DNA of 64,000 nucleotides, from NCBI GenBank assembly GCA_018816865.1, contig JAHIUW010000017.1:62001-126000 (forward strand), in the 5' to 3' direction. A model generated the notes under the pieces. The model saw only the letters and a program-made list of their open reading frames with translations. It made no database searches and had not been told where the DNA came from. The DNA is from Pseudomonadota bacterium (GTDB taxonomy: Bacteria > Desulfobacterota > Desulfovibrionia > Desulfovibrionales > Desulfovibrionaceae). The number at the start of each line of letters is the position of its first letter. The stretch's first letter is position 1. Made by a program: the position numbers and the translations under genes. Below are positions 4,319 to 26,414 of the stretch, one piece after another.

Positions 4319-4647
4319 CCCTGAACACTACCACAACGAACGAAAGACGTGCAACAAATCCAGAGGGGATTGGTCCCTCTTCAGCCTTCCGGGAAACCCT
4401 CGCACCATCGGGACAAAGCACGTGGCAGACGCCCTGGAAAAACAAGCATCGACGCTCCAACACTCTCCGACACCGAACCATGCATGGGACATGAAGCGAC
4501 CCTCCATTGATTCCCGAGGGGTGGAGCATAGGGAAAACCCCTATTGCCCTTTGATCTACATTTTTGTATGGGTGGTGCCCATTTTAAGGCGTCATACCAC
4601 GTGGATCAGGCCTTGCCAGCGATCTCGACATGCGCCAGGAGCATTAC
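4319..4647. other. divergent intergenic region without a gene
   Basis: About 330 bases separate the divergent cyclase and HD-domain genes and presumably hold both promoters. I see no well-matched -35/-10 pair and no recognisable riboswitch core. Short minus-strand reading frames here have no ribosome binding site and an arbitrary composition. Confidence 0.4.
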
Positions 4648-5577
4648 GTGAATATCACTATCCCGCAGCTTTATGACTTCGTGAACCCGGCCTTTCCGGA
4701 TGCTGTGCTCACGGAGGTCCTGCTCATTGCCAGCGACCTGAAACTGAACGAAGCAACCCGAATCATCCCGGCGATCCACCACGATATCGTCTCGCTTTTC
4801 GATGGCCGCTTCGATGGCTACAGGGGCAGCAACACCAAATACCACGATCTGGAACACACCCTGTCCGTGGTCCTTTGCACCGCGCGGCTGATGCATGGCT
4901 GCGCCATGGACAACGGTCAGGGGGAATTGCGCCCTTTCCTGCTGGGCATCATCTCAGCCTACTACCACGACGTGGGTCTCATCCAGACCAAGGACGACAA
5001 TGAGGGCACGGGCGCCAAATACACGGTTGGCCATGAGGGGCGTTCCATCGCCTTCATGCGGGAGCACCTCTCCAAGGCAGGACTCGACGAACAGGATCAG
5101 AGCGATATCGCGGACATGATCCGCTGCACCATCCTGGCCGCCTCCCCCGACGAGATCGACTTCAGCAGCAAGCAGGTCGGCCACGCAGGGCGCATCATGG
5201 GCACCGCGGACCTTCTGGCCCAGCTTGCTGACCGCAACTACCTGGAGAAGCTCTTGCTGCTGTTCAAGGAATTCGAGGAGGCCAGACTGCCCGGATATGG
5301 CTCAGAACTGGAACTGCTGCGCAAGACCGAGGCCTTCTACACCCACGTGGCCAAGCCCCGGCTGGAAGGGCCGCTGGGCAACTTGCAGGGCTGCATGACC
5401 AAGCACTTCACCCGCCGCTGGAACACAAAACACGACCTTTACGCCGAATCCATCGAACGCAATATGACGCACTTGGCCATCTTGCTGGAGGAATGCGGCG
5501 AATCCTACGAGTGTCTGCTGAACAAACTCAACCGCGCGGGCATCGCCGAACTGGAGCTGCTGCGCCTGGACCAATAG
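4648..5577 (+). CDS. HD-domain protein resembling cyclic-nucleotide phosphodiesterases
   Basis: A soluble protein of 309 residues carrying an HD metal-binding fold. The segment KYHDLEH (H66, D67, H70) resembles the YHNxxH signature of class I 3',5'-cyclic nucleotide phosphodiesterases, and AYYHDVG (H107, D108) supplies the second HD pair. Hydrolysis of a cyclic nucleotide or another phosphoester is therefore plausible, but the substrate is not shown. I chose the GTG at 4648 because CCAGGAG at 4635-4641 sits six bases upstream; the ATG at 4630 lies before that site and has none of its own. It is divergent from the diguanylate cyclase gene and is closed by a long hairpin shared with the histidine kinase gene. 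Confidence 0.75.
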   Translation: MNITIPQLYDFVNPAFPDAVLTEVLLIASDLKLNEATRIIPAIHHDIVSLFDGRFDGYRGSNTKYHDLEHTLSVVLCTARLMHGCAMDNGQGELRPFLLGIISAYYHDVGLIQTKDDNEGTGAKYTVGHEGRSIAFMREHLSKAGLDEQDQSDIADMIRCTILAASPDEIDFSSKQVGHAGRIMGTADLLAQLADRNYLEKLLLLFKEFEEARLPGYGSELELLRKTEAFYTHVAKPRLEGPLGNLQGCMTKHFTRRWNTKHDLYAESIERNMTHLAILLEECGESYECLLNKLNRAGIAELELLRLDQ

Positions 5578-5592
5578 CCCCCAGGTGACTCC

Positions 5593-5646
5593 CCGAATAC
5601 AGGCGGGCCGCCGGAGAAGACTCTCCGGCGGCCCGCCTGTATTCGG
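5593..5646. terminator. 25-bp perfect inverted repeat between convergent genes
   Basis: The arms 5593-5617 and 5622-5646 are perfect complements separated by a 4-base loop. The hairpin lies 15 bases after one stop codon and 10 bases before the stop of the opposite gene, so it can terminate both transcripts. It is GC-rich in the middle and lacks a long T run. Confidence 0.85.
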
Positions 5647-5656
5647 AAAGAATGCG

Positions 5657-7969
5657 TCAGATAGGCAAACGGATGATGAACGTCGCCCCACGTCCGGGGG
5701 CCGAATTCACGGCAAAGGTGCCGCCGTGATTATCCGTGATGATGAAGTAGGAGACGGACAGGCCCAACCCCGTGCCCTGTCCCACGTCCTTGGTGGTGAA
5801 GAAGGGTTCAAAGATCCGCCGCCGGGTCTCCCCGTCCATGCCCGGGCCATTGTCGGAGATCTCCACCCGCACCCAATCGCCATCGCGTCTGGTGTGGAGC
5901 CTGAGCACCGGCGTCCCTGGAGAACCATGCGTGGACATGGCCTGGGCGGCGTTGCGAAACAGGTTCAGAAAAACCTGCTCGATCTCGGTGGCCGAGCACA
6001 TCACCGGGGGCAGAGCAGGGTCATAGTCCCGCTCCACATGGATCTTCCTGAAATCATACTGACGCTTGAGGTCGTATTCGCTGCCCACCAGCTCCAGCGC
6101 CTTTTCCAAAAGCGACGCCAAATCGCTCAAGGCCCGCTTGGATTCGCTGGCCCGGCTGAACTCCAGCATATTGGACACGATCTGCGCGGCCCGCATGCCG
6201 CATTCGCGGATCCCGTCCAACATGCGCAACACCCCCCGCTGCTGCAGGTAGCGGTCAATGAGTTCCAGGGGACAACCAATTTCCTCGGCAACCTTGATAT
6301 TGGCCTCGAACCGAGGCGACAGACGCCTGATGATATTCTGCGACCCCTGGAGGATACCCCCCAGCGGATTGTTGATTTCATGGGCCATGCCTGCGGCCAA
6401 TCCGCCCACGGACATCATTTTCTCCGTCTGAATCATCATCTCTTCCATCTGCACCCGGTCGGTCACATTGGCGATGACGATGACCACGCCTTCGGCTCCT
6501 GCCAGGGGGTGGATGTCAATGGACCGATAGATCGTCCGCCCATTTTGCACGCCCATGATCTTGTCGTGGGACACCGAACGTCGTTCGCGCATGGCCTCGG
6601 ACATCAGGTCGAGAAAAGAGCCGCTTGCCGGGCACGAGGTGGCCACGTCCCGACCCAGGGCCTGGGTCCTGGACACGCCCATCTCCTCCTCGGCGCGCCG
6701 GTTCCACAAGGTGATCCTGTTCTCGACATCCACTCCAAGGACGATCATCGGCATGGAATCGATGATGTCCTGAAGGTGGCTTCGTGTCTGCTTCTCAGCC
6801 GCCTCAGCCACCCTGCGGTCCCTGATCTCACGGCGCAGATTTCTGTCGTACTGCTCCAGTCGATCCATGAAATGGTTGAAGTAGCTCGCCACCCGGCCCA
6901 TCTCGTCCTTGGAGTGTTCGGCCAGACGGACCGTGAACTCGCCCTCGGAGGCCTTGGCGAATCCCGTGCCCAGTTCCTTGAGCGACGACGTCACGGACAT
7001 CCCAACCCACCAGGCAAACGGCAACCCCAGGCAGAGCAACGTCAACACCACCATCAAAGCCACGCGGCGCAGGTAGATCAAGGGGGCCTTGAAGTCATCA
7101 AGATAGCCGCTGGCGGCAACGATCCAGTCCACCTCGGGCAGATAATTGTAGATGACGATCTTCTCGCGGGGATCAGGGTCTCCAGGGTTTTTCCACCAGT
7201 ATTGGATCTTCCCGAATTTTTTGGAGACCATCTCCCGGATCAACTCCCGGCCCTTGGCGCCCTTGACGTTCAACACATTCCCCGAAAGGAACGGATGCGC
7301 CACCAAGTTGCCGAGGGAATCGACCACAAAGGCATAGCCATCCCGCCCAAAGCGTTGGGCCAGGATGCTGCGTCGAAAATCGCGCACATCAACCAATTCG
7401 CGGAATTCCTCCCTGTAGGAGCTGACGGAAATGACCCAGTCCCAGGGCTCGAAATAGGACATGTACAGAGCCTTGGGCCTGAGCGATTCCTCGCCTGGGT
7501 TCTTCCAGTAATATTCGAGGTACCCTTCCTTGCGCATCAACTGCTGCTGGACAAAATCAAAACCCGAGACGTCCCGGCCCAGATTATCCGCAATGGGGTG
7601 CACGACCACAATGCCCTTGCTGTCCAGGCAATAGATGTAGCCCGTCTTGCCGATGCGCTGGGCAAGCAGCACCTCCTGGGCCAACTGCTTGGCGGTGGCC
7701 TCGGTCATGACGCCACGTTTCGCCCGCTGATAATAGCTTTGCACGATCTCACGATTTTTCTCGGCCACAGCGCGCAGCCGATTGCGCACGGAAACATCCA
7801 CCGATGTCCTGACCAATTCCAGAAGCGTGGCGGAGCTGTTGGAGAGTTCGTTCTCGATGTTGCGCTGCAGGGTATCCTGGACCAGTGTGTACAGCACAAG
7901 CCCACCGACCAGGAGCGTTCCGGCGAAGATCAGAAAAAAGCCTGCGAATATCTTGGTGCGAATGTTCAT
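5657..7969 (-). CDS. membrane sensor histidine kinase (tandem Cache-HAMP-PAS-HisKA-HATPase)
   Basis: A 770-residue kinase. Membrane segments at about 7-30 and 303-325 enclose two Cache-like modules, each ending in a WKNPG motif followed by a WDWVI or VDWIV segment. A HAMP linker (about 325-378) and a PAS domain (about 395-505) follow. The HisKA motif AAGMAHEINNP places the phosphoacceptor at H530. The ATPase domain has an N-box (FLNLFRNA), DNGPGMD and GTGLGLS. The product should autophosphorylate on binding a small external ligand. No response regulator gene is adjacent, so its partner lies elsewhere. The ATG at 7969 begins the first membrane segment; its ribosome binding site is weak. Confidence 0.92.
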   Translation of the reverse strand: MNIRTKIFAGFFLIFAGTLLVGGLVLYTLVQDTLQRNIENELSNSSATLLELVRTSVDVSVRNRLRAVAEKNREIVQSYYQRAKRGVMTEATAKQLAQEVLLAQRIGKTGYIYCLDSKGIVVVHPIADNLGRDVSGFDFVQQQLMRKEGYLEYYWKNPGEESLRPKALYMSYFEPWDWVISVSSYREEFRELVDVRDFRRSILAQRFGRDGYAFVVDSLGNLVAHPFLSGNVLNVKGAKGRELIREMVSKKFGKIQYWWKNPGDPDPREKIVIYNYLPEVDWIVAASGYLDDFKAPLIYLRRVALMVVLTLLCLGLPFAWWVGMSVTSSLKELGTGFAKASEGEFTVRLAEHSKDEMGRVASYFNHFMDRLEQYDRNLRREIRDRRVAEAAEKQTRSHLQDIIDSMPMIVLGVDVENRITLWNRRAEEEMGVSRTQALGRDVATSCPASGSFLDLMSEAMRERRSVSHDKIMGVQNGRTIYRSIDIHPLAGAEGVVIVIANVTDRVQMEEMMIQTEKMMSVGGLAAGMAHEINNPLGGILQGSQNIIRRLSPRFEANIKVAEEIGCPLELIDRYLQQRGVLRMLDGIRECGMRAAQIVSNMLEFSRASESKRALSDLASLLEKALELVGSEYDLKRQYDFRKIHVERDYDPALPPVMCSATEIEQVFLNLFRNAAQAMSTHGSPGTPVLRLHTRRDGDWVRVEISDNGPGMDGETRRRIFEPFFTTKDVGQGTGLGLSVSYFIITDNHGGTFAVNSAPGRGATFIIRLPI

Positions 7970-19214: not shown

Positions 19215-20615
19215 ATGGCTCAAGCCAGAGATTTTGACAGACGAAACGGCCCGGTTCAGCTGCGAACAAATAACCTCGGCACAGACGCATTTAACAAACT
19301 GATTTCAGAACTGATGCCTGGAATGCTCGTGCGTGCAAGCCGCATCCTCCTGTCTCGGGAAGATGCTCAGGATGTCGTGCAGGATTCCCTCATCATCGCA
19401 TTCACCAGGCTTGACCAGATTCGAAACGTCAACAGCTTTCCGGGCTGGCTCAAATCCATTGTCGACTCTCAATGCTTCCGGCATTTGCGCAAGCGAAACA
19501 AAGAAGTTCCCTTGGATGGGTTGGAGCACTACCAACCGCTGGCCCCGAAATACCTGGATCCAGCATCCAGGTATGAGCAGCGCTGTTTCCTGGCAGCAGT
19601 CAATCATGCATTTCTACAATTATCTGCCCCCCTGCGGGACGTCTGCCACCTCTACTATGAATCCGGCCATTCCATCGATGAAATCGCCGATATCCTTGCC
19701 GTCAATAAGGGCACCGTCCGCAAGCGATTGCACAGCGCTCAACCCCTACTGGCCAGCATGCTTAAGGACCAAATGGGGGAAACAGCAATCCGGGTGGGGT
19801 ATCTGCCCATTTCCGACCATCTGCTAGGCATGGTAGCCCACAGGTTGAGCAAAGGGCGGCATTCGAGAATCCACATGAAACGCTTCCTGTCGTGGAGCGT
19901 CCTCGCCGAAGCATTGAAGCAGGGGCGCATCGATGCGGCCTTTATCATGGCCCCCCTTGCCATGCATCTGTGCAACTCCGGCACGCGCCTCAAATACGTC
20001 CTGGACGGACATCATGATGGCAGCGCCCTGGCGGCATCCACCCACAAGCTCCAGGGCAAACTCGTGGGGGTACCCGGCCCTTATTCCACACATCGCGTCC
20101 TGCTGGGCAAACTGGCCCATGAAGCTCCGAATCTCTGGGAAAACATCAACACCGCGGACACCAATCCGTCCTACGCCATCCGGTCCCTGAAAAGCCAGAC
20201 CATCGACGCATTCTTCTGCGCAGAACCATGGAGCACGAAATGCGTATGTGAAGGCGATGCGAAAGTCTTCATCCGCTCCAAGGATCTGGCTCCCGGTCAT
20301 CCCTGCTGTGTCGTGGCCGTGCGCGAAGACTTTTGCCAGGCACACCCCTGTCTGGTGAACGAATATGTCTGCGCTCTGCTTCGGGCACGCGACAAGATTC
20401 ATACCGACATCACATACTGTGCGGAAACCCAGACCATTTACACCGGCATCCAAAGCGAACTCGCCGCCCGGGTGCTCGAAGGCAAAGTAGTGACCTTCGA
20501 TAATCTTCGCCCGGACAAAGACCGAATGGCCAAGTTCATGAAACTCGCCATTGCCAGTGGAGTGCTGTCCGCCTCTTGCGATCTGGACCAATTCGTGTGC
20601 AACAAATTCCTTTGA
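19215..20615 (+). CDS. ECF sigma factor fused to a NasS/NrtA-like ligand-binding domain
   Basis: A 466-residue protein made of two parts. Residues 25-95 are sigma-70 region 2 (DAQDVVQDSLIIAFTRLD, then SFPGWLKSIV) and 125-182 are region 4 with the helix-turn-helix SIDEIADILAVNKGTVRKRL. From residue 191 to the end the protein follows the NrtA/NasS/CmpA group of nitrate, nitrite or bicarbonate binding proteins: IRVGYLPISDH, FLSWSVLAEALKQGRIDAAFIMAPLAM, GVPGPYSTH and IDAFFCAEPWST. No signal peptide or membrane segment is present, so the binding domain should be cytoplasmic like NasS. No anti-sigma gene lies nearby. I infer a sigma factor directly gated by a small ligand, controlling the FNT/molybdoenzyme genes that follow. 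AAGGTG lies eight bases before the ATG. Confidence 0.88.
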   Translation: MAQARDFDRRNGPVQLRTNNLGTDAFNKLISELMPGMLVRASRILLSREDAQDVVQDSLIIAFTRLDQIRNVNSFPGWLKSIVDSQCFRHLRKRNKEVPLDGLEHYQPLAPKYLDPASRYEQRCFLAAVNHAFLQLSAPLRDVCHLYYESGHSIDEIADILAVNKGTVRKRLHSAQPLLASMLKDQMGETAIRVGYLPISDHLLGMVAHRLSKGRHSRIHMKRFLSWSVLAEALKQGRIDAAFIMAPLAMHLCNSGTRLKYVLDGHHDGSALAASTHKLQGKLVGVPGPYSTHRVLLGKLAHEAPNLWENINTADTNPSYAIRSLKSQTIDAFFCAEPWSTKCVCEGDAKVFIRSKDLAPGHPCCVVAVREDFCQAHPCLVNEYVCALLRARDKIHTDITYCAETQTIYTGIQSELAARVLEGKVVTFDNLRPDKDRMAKFMKLAIASGVLSASCDLDQFVCNKFL

Positions 20616-20909
20616 TGCCCGCCTGCTGCGCCCATCGCACAAGACATCCCCCCTCTCCTTTCAGAACGAGCATCCGGCCCCCACTTCCGCGAAGGTTCAC
20701 CCGATTATTTTCAACTTTCTTTCTCCAGGCAGGTAACTTTTTCGGCACCTCGCGGCTCTTTATGTTGCAGGCGTCAAAAAATGTCTGCGCGCAGTGCACC
20801 GCGCCGAGCAATGGACTCCCAGAGAAACCACATTTCCCGTTGACGGGAACAGTTGAGCATCCACGCCCACAGATCATCAGGGCAAAGGACGTTTTCACAG
20901 GAGAACTTG
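20616..20909 (+). other. long leader between the sigma fusion and the FNT gene
   Basis: A gene-free stretch of 294 bases. It contains a GTAACTT at 20733-20739 that resembles the AAC core of ECF -35 elements, and a perfect 6-bp hairpin (20834-20839 with 20844-20849) 60 bases before the FNT start. It may hold a promoter recognised by the upstream sigma factor or a structured 5' leader. Neither is demonstrated. Confidence 0.35.
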
Positions 20910-21800
20910 ATGCCGTTGAATTCAGAGGAACATATTCTGGGGGTTGCGGACCTCTGTTCAAAAAAATGGGAAATGCTCAGAGACAGGCCTCTGGCTTTCC
21001 TGCTTTCAGCATTCGCAGGAGGTGCATTTGTCTGCTTCGGGGCCATGCTGGCTTTGGCCGTATCAGCCGGGGTCCCGCAAAATATGGCACCAGGGCTGGC
21101 CAATCTGCTCATGGGCCTGGTTTTCATGTTCTCGCTGGTCATCATCATGTTCAGCGGCATGACGCTGGTGACAGCGGACATGGCCTACGGCCTAGTAGGA
21201 GTGTTTCAAAGCCGGATATCCTGGGGACAATTCGCCCTGGGCGTTTTTGCCGGTTATATCGGCAATTTCGCCGGTTCCATGAGCTTCATGTGGATCATGA
21301 GCAAGGGGGGCGGCTATCACGCCTTGCCCTGGCTTATGCGCGCACACGATATCGGCCTGGCGAAGACAGGTGAAACCGCCATGGAAATCTTTGTCATGGG
21401 CATCATCTGCACATGGACGCTCCAGTCCGCAGCCATTCTTTTCATGAAAACCAACGACGACATGAGCAAGATCATGCTGACGGCATACGGCCCCCTGGCC
21501 TTTGTTGCCGGCATGAACGAGCACTGCATCGCCAACATTGGCTTTCTGGCGGTGCCACTGTTCCAGCAGGACATGTGGATCGAGACCGTTTCGAGCATGA
21601 ACGGAATAACCCCCACGCTGATGCACTGGGGGTTCGGAAAATACGGGTGGGCACACAACCAACTGTTCACTGTCATGGGCAATGCCATCGGCGGAACCTT
21701 GTTCGTGGCCGTGATTTTTCAGCTTGTGGCCGACCCGCTCAAACTCAAGGAATTATATCGCAAACGCCGGATGCAGACCGCAACGGACAAACACACCTAA
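20910..21800 (+). CDS. formate/nitrite transporter (FNT) family channel
   Basis: A 296-residue integral membrane protein with about six hydrophobic helices and the FNT layout: GGAFVCFGAMLAL, NLLMGLVFMFSLVIIMFSGMTLVTADM and a later GMNEHCIANIGF segment around the central conserved His. FNT channels move formate, nitrite, hydrosulfide, lactate or similar monovalent anions across the inner membrane. I cannot tell which anion this one carries. The ATG at 20910 follows AGGAG by seven bases; an upstream start at 20853 is not supported. It begins the probable operon that runs through the molybdoenzyme subunits. Confidence 0.88.
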   Translation: MPLNSEEHILGVADLCSKKWEMLRDRPLAFLLSAFAGGAFVCFGAMLALAVSAGVPQNMAPGLANLLMGLVFMFSLVIIMFSGMTLVTADMAYGLVGVFQSRISWGQFALGVFAGYIGNFAGSMSFMWIMSKGGGYHALPWLMRAHDIGLAKTGETAMEIFVMGIICTWTLQSAAILFMKTNDDMSKIMLTAYGPLAFVAGMNEHCIANIGFLAVPLFQQDMWIETVSSMNGITPTLMHWGFGKYGWAHNQLFTVMGNAIGGTLFVAVIFQLVADPLKLKELYRKRRMQTATDKHT

Positions 21801-21944: not shown

Positions 21945-21983
21945 GTCAATGCTTTGGGTACAGTGAAACCTAGGAGTACGATT

Positions 21984-24119
21984 ATGTATGAAGATGGGTG
22001 GATTCCAACTATTTGCTATCAGTGCAAAGCTGAATGCGCCATTCTGGCCCGCGTGGAAGATGGCGTCGTCAAGGAAGTGAAAGGCAATCCCCGAGGTCGC
22101 GGCAAGGCCTGCGTCAAAGGCATGGCCGGCATCACTTCGCTCTATTCTTCGGAGCGACTCAAATACCCCATGAAGCGTGTCGGTGAACGTGGAAGCGGCA
22201 AGTTCGAACGCATCACCTGGGACGAAGCCATGGGCATCATGGAAACCAAACTGACCGAACTCCGCGAGCGTGGCGAAGCCCACAAGTTCACCTATTCCAT
22301 GTTCCCCCATTCGGTCACCGACCCCAAATGGCGGTTCGTGAACGCCTGCGGAGGCTTCATTTCCACAGGTCTGCCGCACTGTGACTCGGCCAAGATCATG
22401 GCTCACATGCACACCTTCGGTTGCTTCCCCAACCACCATATCGCCCCCATGTACAATACCGTACCCAAGGGTGGCCTGATGATCCTGTCCGGCCGTCATC
22501 CCTTCGGCTGCCTGGACGATGCCTGCGTGCCCAAGCACATCCTCGATGCCAAGGCACGTGGAGCCAAGCTCATCGTCATTGATCCCATCTACCGCACCGA
22601 AGCCTCCAAGGCCGACTGGTGGATTCCCATCAAACCCGGCGGAGATGCGTCCCTGTTCCTGGGCGTCTGCAACTATCTGCTGACCAACGACCTGCACGAC
22701 AAGGATTTCTGCGACAAATGGGTTCGTGAAGGGGACATGGAGAGCCTGAAGGCATACATCTCCGACAAGACCCCCCAGGCCATGAGCAAGATCTGTGGCG
22801 TTCCGGCTGCGGATATCGAGAAACTAGCCAAAATGGTTGCAGAAGCACCCAGCGCCTGCATCGATGCCTTCAAGTCCATCATGTACGGCAACGGCATGGA
22901 TTGGGGCCACGCTTGGTCCATCTTCTTGGTGATCACCGGCAATCTGGACAACCCCGGTGGCCAGCCCCTGCCCGAGATCGCTCCCATGGCTCCGGTCGAA
23001 CCCGTCCCCGCAGGCCCCAACCTTGGGGAACTGGGGTACCACCGCACGGGCAAGAACCGTGAGAAATTCGACAATTACAACTTCTTCCTGGAGCCCACCT
23101 GGTACGCAGCCCAGGCCATCAAGGATGACGGACTCAAGGTTTTCTTCGCCTCGGAGTGCAACCCTGCCCTGTCAGAAATGGGTTCGGGCGAATGGCGCAA
23201 GGCCGTGACCATGAAAGACGAGAACGGCGACTACAAGCTTGAGCTGCTCGTGGTCACGGAAATCATGCCATCCGAAACCATGAAATGGGCCGACCTCGTA
23301 TTACCCGACCAGACCAACTTCGAGCGTTGGGAATTGCTGTATATGCCCTGGTGGTACAACTTCGGCCACGGCACTGCCCTGTGCCAGCCCGTGGTCAAAC
23401 CCATTGGCGAGGCACGCCATGCCAACAGGGTCTTCATCGAACTTGGAAAACGCATGTTCCCGGAGTACTTCGCCTTTAAGGACGATGTCGAGTACTACGA
23501 CATCGAACTTGCCGGCGTGGGCATGTCGGTAAAGAAGCTGCAGGAGAACGGTGGTCTATGGTCGCCCGGCACTGCGGGCTTCCGCAAGTACGAGGACCAG
23601 GGCAAGTTCAACACCCCCTCCGGCAAGATCGAGCTGGAATGGCAGATGTATAAGGACATCGGGCAAGAGTGGCCCAACCCTGAACTGCCTCTGGAATATC
23701 GCCGAGGCGAAGATGAGTTCCCATTCATTCTGGTCAACTTCAGGACCATCTTTCTCAACAACACCGGTGCCTGGTCCCAGAACAATGCCCAGCTCCGCGA
23801 CCCGGCTTCGGGCCTGGACGCCAACCCCTGTCTGCTGAACCCCATCGATGCCAAGAAACTGGGCGTGGAAGACGGCGACACGGTGACCATGGAATCGGGC
23901 TCCGGCAAGGTCCAGATCCCCGTCAGACTCACGGAAAAGATCATCCCCGGTTGCGCCGGCATCATCCACGGCTTTGGCCAAACCATGGGCAAGGTGGCCT
24001 CGCGCGGCAACTGGATCAACGATAACGAGCTGATCGCCGATGCGGGCTCCACTCTGGATGAACAGGACATGCGCGGTGGCGAAGCTCACGTTTCCACCCG
24101 GATCAAGATCTACAAGTAA
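21984..24119 (+). CDS. cytoplasmic molybdopterin oxidoreductase, catalytic subunit (DMSO reductase family)
   Basis: A 711-residue catalytic subunit. The N-terminal [4Fe-4S] motif is C11, C14, C18 and C43, followed by the RLKYPMKRVG segment common to the family. PHCDSAK puts a cysteine, C133, at the expected metal-ligand position. The C-terminal molybdopterin-dinucleotide-binding domain includes LLNPIDAKKLGVEDGDTV and GIIHGFGQTMG. No twin-arginine signal is present, so it stays in the cytoplasm, unlike most Phs/Psr/Arr reductases that it otherwise resembles. The start at 21984 follows TAGGAG. The partner Fe-S subunit is the next gene. The substrate is unknown; the C133 context argues against a typical formate dehydrogenase. 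Confidence 0.88.
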   Translation: MYEDGWIPTICYQCKAECAILARVEDGVVKEVKGNPRGRGKACVKGMAGITSLYSSERLKYPMKRVGERGSGKFERITWDEAMGIMETKLTELRERGEAHKFTYSMFPHSVTDPKWRFVNACGGFISTGLPHCDSAKIMAHMHTFGCFPNHHIAPMYNTVPKGGLMILSGRHPFGCLDDACVPKHILDAKARGAKLIVIDPIYRTEASKADWWIPIKPGGDASLFLGVCNYLLTNDLHDKDFCDKWVREGDMESLKAYISDKTPQAMSKICGVPAADIEKLAKMVAEAPSACIDAFKSIMYGNGMDWGHAWSIFLVITGNLDNPGGQPLPEIAPMAPVEPVPAGPNLGELGYHRTGKNREKFDNYNFFLEPTWYAAQAIKDDGLKVFFASECNPALSEMGSGEWRKAVTMKDENGDYKLELLVVTEIMPSETMKWADLVLPDQTNFERWELLYMPWWYNFGHGTALCQPVVKPIGEARHANRVFIELGKRMFPEYFAFKDDVEYYDIELAGVGMSVKKLQENGGLWSPGTAGFRKYEDQGKFNTPSGKIELEWQMYKDIGQEWPNPELPLEYRRGEDEFPFILVNFRTIFLNNTGAWSQNNAQLRDPASGLDANPCLLNPIDAKKLGVEDGDTVTMESGSGKVQIPVRLTEKIIPGCAGIIHGFGQTMGKVASRGNWINDNELIADAGSTLDEQDMRGGEAHVSTRIKIYK

Positions 24120-24131
24120 AAGGAGTTTGAA

Positions 24132-24686
24132 ATGAGACAGCTCAGCATAATGGTGGATCTCGATCGCTGCATCGGGTGCAAAACCTGCATCGTGGCCTGC
24201 CGCAATCACCACGGCATCATCGATCACGAAAACGATCAACCCGGTGCCATTCCAAGCTACCTCAGGGTGGAAAGCAAACTTGAAGGTACTTTCCCCTCGT
24301 TGCAGGAAGATTACTGGGTGGTCATGTGCCAGCACTGCAAAAAGACCCCTTGCGCCAAGGTTTGTGAAGTCGGCGCCATCACCAAGGATGAGCAGACCGG
24401 CATCGTCCTCATCGACCAGGAAAAGTGCAACGGCTGTGGCGAATGCATCGACAAGTGCCCTTACAAGGTCATCCAATTCAACAAGCAGACCAACTACGCG
24501 CACAAGTGCAACATGTGCTACGATCGCGTAATCCACGGCCTGGACCCGGTCTGTGTGGACGTCTGCATGACCGACGCCTTGAGCTTCGGTGAAAAGGAAA
24601 TCCTGCTGATGCAGGCCGAGGCCGACGGCAAACAGGTGATCAAGAAAATGAGCACCCAGTCCATCATCTACACCAAGACTCCCTAA
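24132..24686 (+). CDS. four-cluster ferredoxin-type electron-transfer subunit
   Basis: A 184-residue DmsB/PhsB/NrfC-type subunit with sixteen cysteines in four groups: CIGCKTC with a following C, CQHCKKTPC with C, CNGCGEC with C, and CNMC with a later PVCVDVC. Each group fits one [4Fe-4S] cluster, so it should wire electrons to or from the catalytic subunit encoded 12 bases upstream. It lacks a signal peptide. AAGGAG precedes the ATG by about six bases. No dedicated quinol-oxidising membrane subunit follows; only the 44-residue peptide upstream could anchor the complex. Confidence 0.93.
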   Translation: MRQLSIMVDLDRCIGCKTCIVACRNHHGIIDHENDQPGAIPSYLRVESKLEGTFPSLQEDYWVVMCQHCKKTPCAKVCEVGAITKDEQTGIVLIDQEKCNGCGECIDKCPYKVIQFNKQTNYAHKCNMCYDRVIHGLDPVCVDVCMTDALSFGEKEILLMQAEADGKQVIKKMSTQSIIYTKTP

Positions 24687-24755: not shown

Positions 24756-26414
24756 ATGAACACGGACTACTCACAACTCCTGGCTCCATCCGATACCATC
24801 GGCCCCTATTCAATCGATCAATTCATAGAGGCTGCCACCCGGTTCCATGGCTATGCCGCGCCGGGTCTCGTCCTGGGCGGATTCATGGTGGACGCCGCCA
24901 TCAAAGCCCTACCCGACGACACCTTGTTCGATGCCATCAGCGAAACATCATGGTGCCTGCCCGATGCGGTTCAGATGCTATCCCCCTGCTCCATCGGCAA
25001 CGGCTGGCTCAAAATCCTGAATCTTGGCCTGTACGCCGTATGCCTGTACGACAAATTCACGGGCAAGGGCGTGCGCCTGTGGCTCGATCTGGACAAGGTA
25101 GAGCCTGACTCCGAAATCAAAACCTGGCTCCTGAAGCTCAAACCAAAACCGGAGCAGGATTCCAAACTCCTGCGCCGCCAGATTATCGAGGCCGGAGCCA
25201 GTCTCTGCTCCATGCGCGATGTGCAGATCAGGCCCGAGCAACTCATCAAGCGCAGCAAAGGCCGGGTTGTCCCCTGCCCGATCTGCAAAGAGCCCTACCC
25301 GGCCCAATTCGGGGCCATCTGTCGTTCCTGCCAAGGCGAATCGCCCTATGTGGACAGCCCCAACGCAGAGTTCCTGGCCGAGCCCGATCTTGTGGCCACA
25401 CTCGTGCAGAAGGCCATCGGTGGAAGCCCCCTGCACGACATGACCCGAATCGAACCAGGGGTCAGCAAGGGCCCCGAATTCCTGCACGGGCAGGTCATCA
25501 CCGGCGGCGACGTCTGCCGGCTGCAACGCATGGGCCGCAGCCGCATCTACCTTGACGATCAGAACCCCGGCACCGAATGGGTTCACGAAAACAAGGTGGC
25601 AACCGCCTTTGCCAAACTCATGTCCGGCCCAGGAACCAGGGTGCTTGGCGACCCGCGTGAAGGCAAATCAAAGCTAGTGGCCGCTCACGACGGTTTACTG
25701 GTCGTCGATTCGGCCAGACTCAAACAATTCAACCATGTTCCCGGTGTCATGTGCGCCTGTCGCCAATCTCACTCCATCGTACAGAAAAGCGCCCAGATCG
25801 CAGGCACGCGCGCCATCCCGCTGTACCTGCCAAACAGAGACTTCCAGGCTGCGCTTCAGATTTTGGACGAGGAACCACTCTTCGCAGTTCATCCGCTCCG
25901 CAAGGCCCGGGTCGGTGTGCTGGTAACCGGGACCGAAGTGTTCACCGGACTTGTGGAAGACAAATTCGCGCCTGTTGTGTCCGCCAAGGTGGCGCATCTG
26001 GGAAGCCAGGTGGTCAGCACCATCAAGGCACCGGACGATGCCAGGGCCATCTGCAACGCGGTACAGAAGCTTGTGGCAGAACAATGCGACCTCATCATCA
26101 CCACGGCAGGCCTCTCCGTTGACCCGGATGATGTCACCCGCAAGGGGCTACAGGACGCGGGGATCACGGAAATGCTTTACGGCATGCCCGTCCTCCCCGG
26201 AGCCATGACCCTGTTGGGGCACCTGGGATCGGTTCAGATTCTGGGGGTTCCGGCCTGCGCCCTGTTCCATAAGACCACAAGCCTTGACCTGCTGTTGCCA
26301 AGGCTGCTCGCCGATATCCCCATCACGCGTTCGAATCTTGCCGAATTCGGAGAAGGCGGGTTGTGCCACGAGTGCAAGACCTGCACGTTCCCCAAATGTT
26401 CATTTGGCCGCTAG
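24756..26414 (+). CDS. FmdE-like / molybdopterin-binding fusion protein
   Basis: A 552-residue fusion. The N-terminal 200 residues resemble FmdE, the protein encoded with molybdenum formylmethanofuran dehydrogenase: HGYAAPGLVLG corresponds to the usual HGHxCPG metal site, and PCPICKEPYPAQFGAICRSCQG is its zinc ribbon. The usual Cys and second His of the HGHxCPG motif are replaced here. The C-terminal half (from about 385) is a MoCF/MoeA-type molybdopterin-binding domain: VGVLVTGTEVFTG, TTAGLSVDPDDVT, GMPVLPGAM and a Cys-rich end GGLCHECKTCTFPKCSFG. Placed straight after a molybdoenzyme operon, it is probably a dedicated cofactor insertion or sensing factor (inference). Confidence 0.8.
   Translation: MNTDYSQLLAPSDTIGPYSIDQFIEAATRFHGYAAPGLVLGGFMVDAAIKALPDDTLFDAISETSWCLPDAVQMLSPCSIGNGWLKILNLGLYAVCLYDKFTGKGVRLWLDLDKVEPDSEIKTWLLKLKPKPEQDSKLLRRQIIEAGASLCSMRDVQIRPEQLIKRSKGRVVPCPICKEPYPAQFGAICRSCQGESPYVDSPNAEFLAEPDLVATLVQKAIGGSPLHDMTRIEPGVSKGPEFLHGQVITGGDVCRLQRMGRSRIYLDDQNPGTEWVHENKVATAFAKLMSGPGTRVLGDPREGKSKLVAAHDGLLVVDSARLKQFNHVPGVMCACRQSHSIVQKSAQIAGTRAIPLYLPNRDFQAALQILDEEPLFAVHPLRKARVGVLVTGTEVFTGLVEDKFAPVVSAKVAHLGSQVVSTIKAPDDARAICNAVQKLVAEQCDLIITTAGLSVDPDDVTRKGLQDAGITEMLYGMPVLPGAMTLLGHLGSVQILGVPACALFHKTTSLDLLLPRLLADIPITRSNLAEFGEGGLCHECKTCTFPKCSFGR

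Follow-up and report, generated by a model that had tools for sequence, protein, structure and literature searches.

An ECF sigma factor fused to a substrate-binding-protein-type domain in Desulfovibrionales: a candidate small-molecule receptor for a single molybdoenzyme operon

A 64,000-nucleotide stretch of contig JAHIUW010000017.1 (positions 62,001–126,000, hereafter the window) from a member of the Desulfovibrionaceae contains a forward-strand gene (19215–20615) in which an ECF sigma factor appears to be joined to a substrate-binding domain. Is this a real protein, which genes could it control, and could a sigma factor itself be the receptor of a small molecule? The gene is one uninterrupted reading frame of 466 codons with an ATG start. 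Pfam analysis placed Sigma-70 region 2 at residues 38–96 (19326–19502; PF04542, Sigma70_r2, E = 5.2e-9), Sigma-70 region 4 at residues 130–174 (19602–19736; PF08281, Sigma70_r4_2, E = 4.1e-6), and NMT1_2 (PF13379) at residues 188–394 (E = 8.1e-24), each above its gathering score. The NCBIfam sigma70-ECF superfamily model also matched above its cut-off (2.9e-18), while the SsuA_fam model aligned to residues 207–466 (2.8e-19) with 69.4 bits, below its cut-off of 163.5 bits. Only Sigma70 regions 2 and 4, separated by a short linker, are present, as defines an ECF sigma factor, and a conserved additional domain follows region 4 in the same chain, as defines a C-terminal extension.

An AlphaFold2 model built on 20 fusions had a mean pLDDT of 80.8 and a pTM of 0.61, the latter allowing nothing firm to be said on how the sigma and binding domains meet. 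Structure searches with the fusion were dominated by the binding domain, and the sigma half was judged from sequence alone. The closest solved fold was 3UN6 of S. aureus (Z = 36.3, rmsd 2.0 over 274 residues), followed by NrtA (Z = 31.8), the regulatory domain of CmpC (Z = 31.7), and CmpA (Z = 30.6), and the domain meets the definition of the NrtA/CmpA/SsuA-type fold. After 3UN6, the best profile matches were the regulatory domains of CmpC and NrtC (2.4e-26). Sigma regions 2 and 4 followed by a NrtA/NasS-type fold, as read in a preliminary description of this locus, were thus confirmed by Pfam, NCBIfam, and structural matches, and the profile search assigned no other fold to the C-terminal part. 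The limits of the NMT1_2/NrtA-type domain had to be redrawn to about residues 188–466 (19776–20612), with the structural match reaching residue 466, and its closest relatives proved to be 3UN6 and the CmpC/NrtC regulatory domains; NasS was not included in the comparison.

The rarity of the architecture is all that can be said for an ordinary gene pair joined by a frameshift or an assembly error. Against it, the frame was free of stops in all 20 aligned loci, ruling out the frameshift that would have made the two halves separate genes. The junction, from the end of the sigma4 helix to the first strand of the binding domain, was 21–22 residues long in every one of these loci. The dN/dS ratio between the fusion and its nearest relative (locus L024) was 0.108 overall and 0.056 across the junction, pointing to purifying selection there, and the fusion was found in single-contig and draft genomes alike. 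Conservation has already refuted a joining error, which we regard as next to impossible. Since full-length copies were present in 29 of the 297 genomes of an order-level sample, the fusion is, as far as sequence comparison can tell, no artefact and is a conserved protein.

The order-level sample yielded 31 matching genomes in total. Besides the 29 with a full-length fusion, G579 contained a copy cut by a contig end and was counted (30 fusion genomes), and G111 had a separate binding protein only, without a fusion. At the family level, 19 of 149 genomes had the fusion, representing 11 of 44 genera and including the source genome; the latter carries a second copy, a 38% identical paralogue, at another location. 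In a sample of 395 genomes of the phylum, with at most four candidates scored per genome, 70 genomes matched; four of them had both halves, all in the family of the window, and the others had the binding domain alone or the sigma domain alone. A profile search of genome contigs returned, among the 80 loci listed, one full-length fusion (L042), most others being plain ECFs; locus L043 of Poribacteria, considered as a second fusion, was rejected as an ordinary 194-aa ECF. One more full-length fusion was found on an IMG/VR contig and had the same promoter site as L040. Two of 72,556 plasmid records matched, with the binding domain only and no fusion. Absence outside the order rests mainly on the phylum sample and the plasmid search, and the fusion would be, as far as sampled, an invention of Desulfovibrionales.

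Extensions of ECF sigma factors are not new in themselves. According to the accessible part of PMC8999054, at least 26 groups carry N- or C-terminal extensions, and ECFs with C-terminal sensory extensions are a recognised class. Like the fusion, they combine sigma2 and sigma4 with a C-terminal domain thought to replace the anti-sigma factor; the extensions named in that portion of the paper are SnoaL-like, TPR, WD40, cysteine-rich, carbohydrate-binding, and anti-sigma-like, whereas that of the fusion has the substrate-binding-protein fold. No NMT1/NrtA-type sigma extension is described in the available portions of PMC8103513 and PMC8999054. In the open-licence literature, to which the search was limited and which did not include the full ECF classification (Casas-Pastor 2021), no description of a substrate-binding-protein domain on a sigma factor was found. 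The earlier statement that no regulator of this architecture had been characterised fits this literature and needs narrowing: ECFs with regulatory extensions are already known, and what we found no description of is a substrate-binding-protein-type sensor on an ECF sigma factor. In the window, the fusion is accompanied by genes for an adenosine-specific kinase, EF-G, an FNT-family channel, a molybdoenzyme, an Fe-S protein, and an FmdE-MoCF protein (Pfam), and none of the seven window proteins scanned contained an anti-sigma Pfam domain. The canonical arrangement of an ECF gene with an adjacent anti-sigma gene was therefore not met at this locus, the only one scanned for one.

The fusion chain lacks an export signal. 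The ABC ATPases CmpC and NrtC resemble it in having a cytoplasmic NrtA-like fold fused to an effector protein and differ in their output, which is transport rather than transcription; they provide a cytoplasmic precedent for the intracellular sensor proposed in the preliminary description, an idea that we retain. NasS, likewise cytoplasmic and NrtA-like, is a regulator of gene expression that pairs with NasT as a separate protein and acts through an RNA-binding antiterminator. It is a stand-alone protein, whereas the binding domain studied here is fused to a sigma factor.

Which genes could such a regulator control? Downstream of the fusion on the same strand lie genes for an FNT-family anion channel (20910–21800, starting with ATG at 20910; PF01226, E = 7.3e-43), a PsrA-like molybdopterin oxidoreductase (21981–24119; PF00384, PF01568, and PF04879), and a 4Fe-4S electron-transfer subunit (24132–24686; PF13247, E = 9.5e-30). 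The best solved relatives of the channel were NirC (1.3e-13), LCIA (5.2e-11), and formate transporters (2.3e-9 and weaker). For the molybdoenzyme, they were thiosulfate/polysulfide reductase (PDB 2vpw, 1.9e-59) and then acetylene hydratase (6.7e-38). Its assignment as a formate dehydrogenase was not supported: the residue following the aligned Cys is Asp, not the His that we presume to be expected there. No export signal was seen in it by eye, and the enzyme is probably cytoplasmic.

The same gene order was found in other genomes, the fusion, the molybdoenzyme, and the 4Fe-4S protein lying in this order on one strand in 26 of 26 loci (20 mapped by tblastn, plus 6; the 4Fe-4S gene is cut by a contig end in L184, and three short loci ending before the molybdoenzyme were left out). 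The FNT gene is an optional partner. It lay between the fusion and the molybdoenzyme in only 7 of the 26 loci (the window, L023, L024, L025, L026, L039, and L182) and was rejected as a constant target; it also adjoins the fusion in the short loci L154, L156, and L157, which end before the molybdoenzyme. In its place, a gene for an HPP-family membrane protein was found in L040 (11189–12082) and L177 (9131–10051) by the Pfam model TM_HPP, and HPP-family proteins were read by eye from the frames beside the molybdoenzyme in L041 (10845–11618) and L215 (4960–5802). This swap beside the molybdoenzyme is an exchange between unrelated transporter families. Gaps of HPP-like size with unidentified content separate the fusion from the molybdoenzyme in L178, L184, and L185, and the remaining loci have only a short gap.

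A further forward-strand gene of the window operon (24756–26414) encodes a 552-aa protein that joins an FmdE domain, a treble-clef zinc finger, and MoCF_biosynth in one chain (PF02663, PF23475, and PF00994). It is possibly a cofactor-related accessory gene and is inconstant: it was found downstream in L024, and partial and on the opposite strand in L182. The matching region of L214 seems to read as two shorter frames.

Across the order-level sample, the molybdoenzyme (threshold 1e-180) was present in 35 of 297 genomes, the fusion in 30, and both in 29 (Fisher p = 3e-33, for related genomes and uncorrected for phylogeny). The sole fusion genome without the molybdoenzyme is G590 (63% complete), where the fusion is encoded close to the end of a contig. 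Because six genomes have the molybdoenzyme only, the enzyme can do without the fusion. Two further arrangements without the fusion were observed. In genome G625, a second molybdoenzyme, 89% identical, is encoded in L214 (5010–11169) downstream of a short transposase-like frame recognised by eye, and in L209 (1522–11895) an FNT-molybdoenzyme-Fe-S unit directly follows what appear by eye to be Rnf complex genes.

ECF promoters combine a GGAAC-type -35 box with a short -10 box and are distinct from those of sigma-70. An element of this look was first spotted by eye after the fusion gene in 20 loci and then searched for in 29. It has the pattern [G/C][G/C][G/T]AAC, a T-rich run, and CTC[T/C], and was found just after the fusion gene in all 29 loci. 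The distance from AAC to the CTC[T/C] box was 18 nt in 24 loci and 20 nt in five, and two loci have CTCC. In the window, the predicted ECF promoter of the operon occupies 20731–20761 on the forward strand, with a -35-like GGTAAC (20732–20737) and a -10-like GCTCT (20755–20759). Based on 20 non-redundant loci, the information per column was 1.41 and 1.36 bits in the boxes, 0.40 in the spacer, and 0.24–0.26 in the flanks. The resemblance to an ECF promoter is not accompanied by biochemical data.

In leave-one-out scans, in which sites at least 75% similar were also left out of the matrix, the element was the top-scoring site of the whole locus on both strands in 29 of 29 cases, ranking first of 127,940 positions in the window. 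The margin was large in most loci and narrow in L177 (9.6 versus 9.3 for the next best site). The matrix was built from the same, related loci; of the hold-outs, L165 and L225 were not independent, being identical to the sites of L177 and L040, and L167 was 81% like L178. Eight loci with the molybdoenzyme and without the fusion served as controls; a ninth (L217) was left out because a contig end truncates its molybdoenzyme. As the control windows had only roughly placed start positions, the comparison relied on the highest score of each control locus, wherever it lay. With the full matrix, this score did not exceed 11.8, compared with at least 21.5 in fusion loci. Under leave-one-out, the true sites of L177 (9.6) and L185 (10.3) scored below that best chance score of 11.8, and the separation from controls was not complete.

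The exact pattern occurred once in the source genome, at the window element. With one mismatch allowed, there were 6 matches versus 10 for the reversed pattern, and of the additional ones, only the site of the paralogue adjoined a fusion gene. When a similar pattern was searched for in 20 further fusion genomes, a match after the fusion was found in 14 and was the sole match of the genome in 13, G002 having one extra match; of the six genomes in which the fusion site was missed, five had no match and G138 had nine matches elsewhere only. For the reversed control pattern, the total over these 20 genomes was 3 matches. Most matches in G138 come from a recurring palindromic repeat, GGGAACCCTTT..AAAGGGTTCCC (e.g., C1:2211247-2211278), that mimics the promoter pattern.

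Autoregulation through the same promoter was considered and rejected, since none of the 29 loci had a site in the 400 nt preceding the fusion gene; the best score there was 3.4 versus at least 21.5 for true sites, several start positions being approximate. Upstream of the window's fusion gene, a consensus scan revealed no sigma-70 promoter; in some relatives, TTGAC-like boxes were seen, by eye only. A riboswitch in the leader was also rejected: the single Rfam match did not lie in the leader and fell well short of its gathering score. Residues 164 and 170 of sigma4 co-vary visibly with the -35 variant, a pattern confounded by phylogeny. The element supports the idea of a dedicated one-component sigma regulator, which remains a prediction. 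It much strengthens the earlier proposal that the downstream operon is the target, with the correction that the FNT gene is an optional member.

What the binding domain could sense was approached through its conserved residues. An alignment of 29 domains, 20 of them fused to sigma and nine not, had 21 positions that were invariant throughout, among them D201, H202, W227, H266, G269, S270, P287, S291, H293, H362, C364, and C365. Of the nine relatives without a sigma factor, two are joined to receiver domains and the others stand alone, some of these beginning, by eye, like exported proteins. The C364–C365 pair corresponds to Gly-Lys in CmpC, with C365 aligned to the Lys, which we take to correspond to the anion-binding residue of NrtA; NrtA was matched structurally, and the Cys/Lys comparison comes from the CmpC alignment only. 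The invariance of these His and Cys residues means that a simple nitrate site as in NrtA cannot be taken for granted. They therefore set the sensor family apart and, together with 3UN6, whose title reads 'with zinc bound', leave metal-like ligands open. 3UN6 shares the GHH-G, STH, AEP, and CC motifs with the fused domain and, unlike it, is a stand-alone component of an ABC importer. The accessible part of one paper naming 3UN6 or its neighbours reports no measured ligand.

CorE of Myxococcus senses metals through a C-terminal extension. The fusion could work in the same manner, with a sensor for transition metals or for soft, thiol-reactive ligands instead of oxyanions. Such a ligand would suit the invariance of H202, H266, H293, H362, C364, and C365 in all 29 domains, the Cys at the position of the CmpC Lys, and the zinc in the closest solved relative; that zinc, however, may stem from crystallisation, and a pocket-facing position of the His and Cys residues has not been demonstrated. 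Genomic context also offers some support. A stand-alone relative of the sensor in L171 (7948–10871) adjoins an anaerobic CO dehydrogenase gene identified by family models, and another in L172 (8034–11040) adjoins a CO dehydrogenase gene recognised by eye. Clade B CO dehydrogenases occur beside NitT/TauT transporters for which, in the accessible part of PMC6344411, import of a metal (nickel) is proposed and likeness to 3UN6 is cited. The nickel idea is itself a mere hypothesis, and the membrane proteins encoded in the operon of the fusion, FNT or HPP, are each linked to anions. We consider a metal or thiol-reactive ligand unlikely, at roughly one chance in four.

The binding domain may also have lost ligand binding altogether and act as a constant anti-sigma-like or protein-interaction module, with regulation exerted through another protein or the expression level. 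Some ECF extensions are thought to work via protein partners, as stated for ECF42 in the available text of PMC8999054. Conservation speaks against this explanation: the mean pairwise identity of the binding domain (0.52) exceeds that of the sigma regions (0.45 and 0.47), and the invariant positions are common to relatives encoded beside ABC-transporter genes. A ligand-free module appears slightly less plausible still than a metal sensor.

The same sensor family was observed in other signalling proteins of the phylum. The L168 protein (4629–6566) contains a CheY-type receiver, NMT1_2, and CheW in one chain (Pfam), and similar proteins were recognised by eye in L169 (12761–14698), L170 (5557–7740), L176 (4886–6805), L180 (6388–8343), and L181 (6816–8864). 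These receiver-NMT1_2 proteins of about 640–730 aa, of which only that of L168 was domain-scanned, appear to be coupling proteins of chemotaxis whose substrate-binding sensor is cytoplasmic. Like the fusion, they use the family as an intracellular signalling input; their output is of the chemotaxis type, and two such domains were 25 and 29% identical to the fused one. In L176 (6858–9839), a CheX gene and a gene containing 4Fe-4S and TrmB-like segments flank the gene of an NMT1_2 protein that stands alone and does not begin like an exported protein.

We favour a one-component initiator with one dedicated promoter, in which a flytrap sensor replaces the anti-sigma factor, and hold this reading to be probable. 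At the sequence level, the fusion, its conservation, the promoter element, the synteny, and the conserved domain residues are documented; promoter function, ligand binding, and allosteric control are inferred. The fusion, assumed to be constantly expressed at a low level, would recruit RNA polymerase through its N-terminal ECF sigma domains to the single promoter at 20731–20761, which would drive the optional anion channel, the molybdoenzyme, the Fe-S subunit, and, in the window, the FmdE-MoCF gene. The C-terminal venus-flytrap domain would bind a small molecule of the cytoplasm, which we infer to be most likely the substrate or product of the molybdoenzyme reaction, or a small anion related to these. 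Closing of the flytrap, transmitted by the short fixed linker to region 4, would alter the access of the sigma domain to core polymerase or DNA and so permit or block initiation; that the ligand is an activator is a guess. The built-in sensor would take the role of a separate anti-sigma factor. The broader proposal is that the sigma factor is itself a small-molecule receptor, its venus-flytrap gating promoter recognition for one operon, and that it arose within a single order, from a sensor family that serves elsewhere in importers and chemotaxis proteins. We lean towards this proposal, with less assurance than towards the one-component mechanism.

If this is correct, 'one-component' sigma factors would extend to a very large class of bacterial ligand receptors. 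A small molecule would be connected to RNA polymerase through a single gene and a single promoter, an arrangement that could be useful as an orthogonal biosensor. The ligand of the sensor, once identified, may reveal the substrate class of the uncharacterised molybdoenzyme. In this group of sulfate reducers, the sensing of a nutrient and the activation of the enzyme acting on it may then be tasks of one and the same protein.
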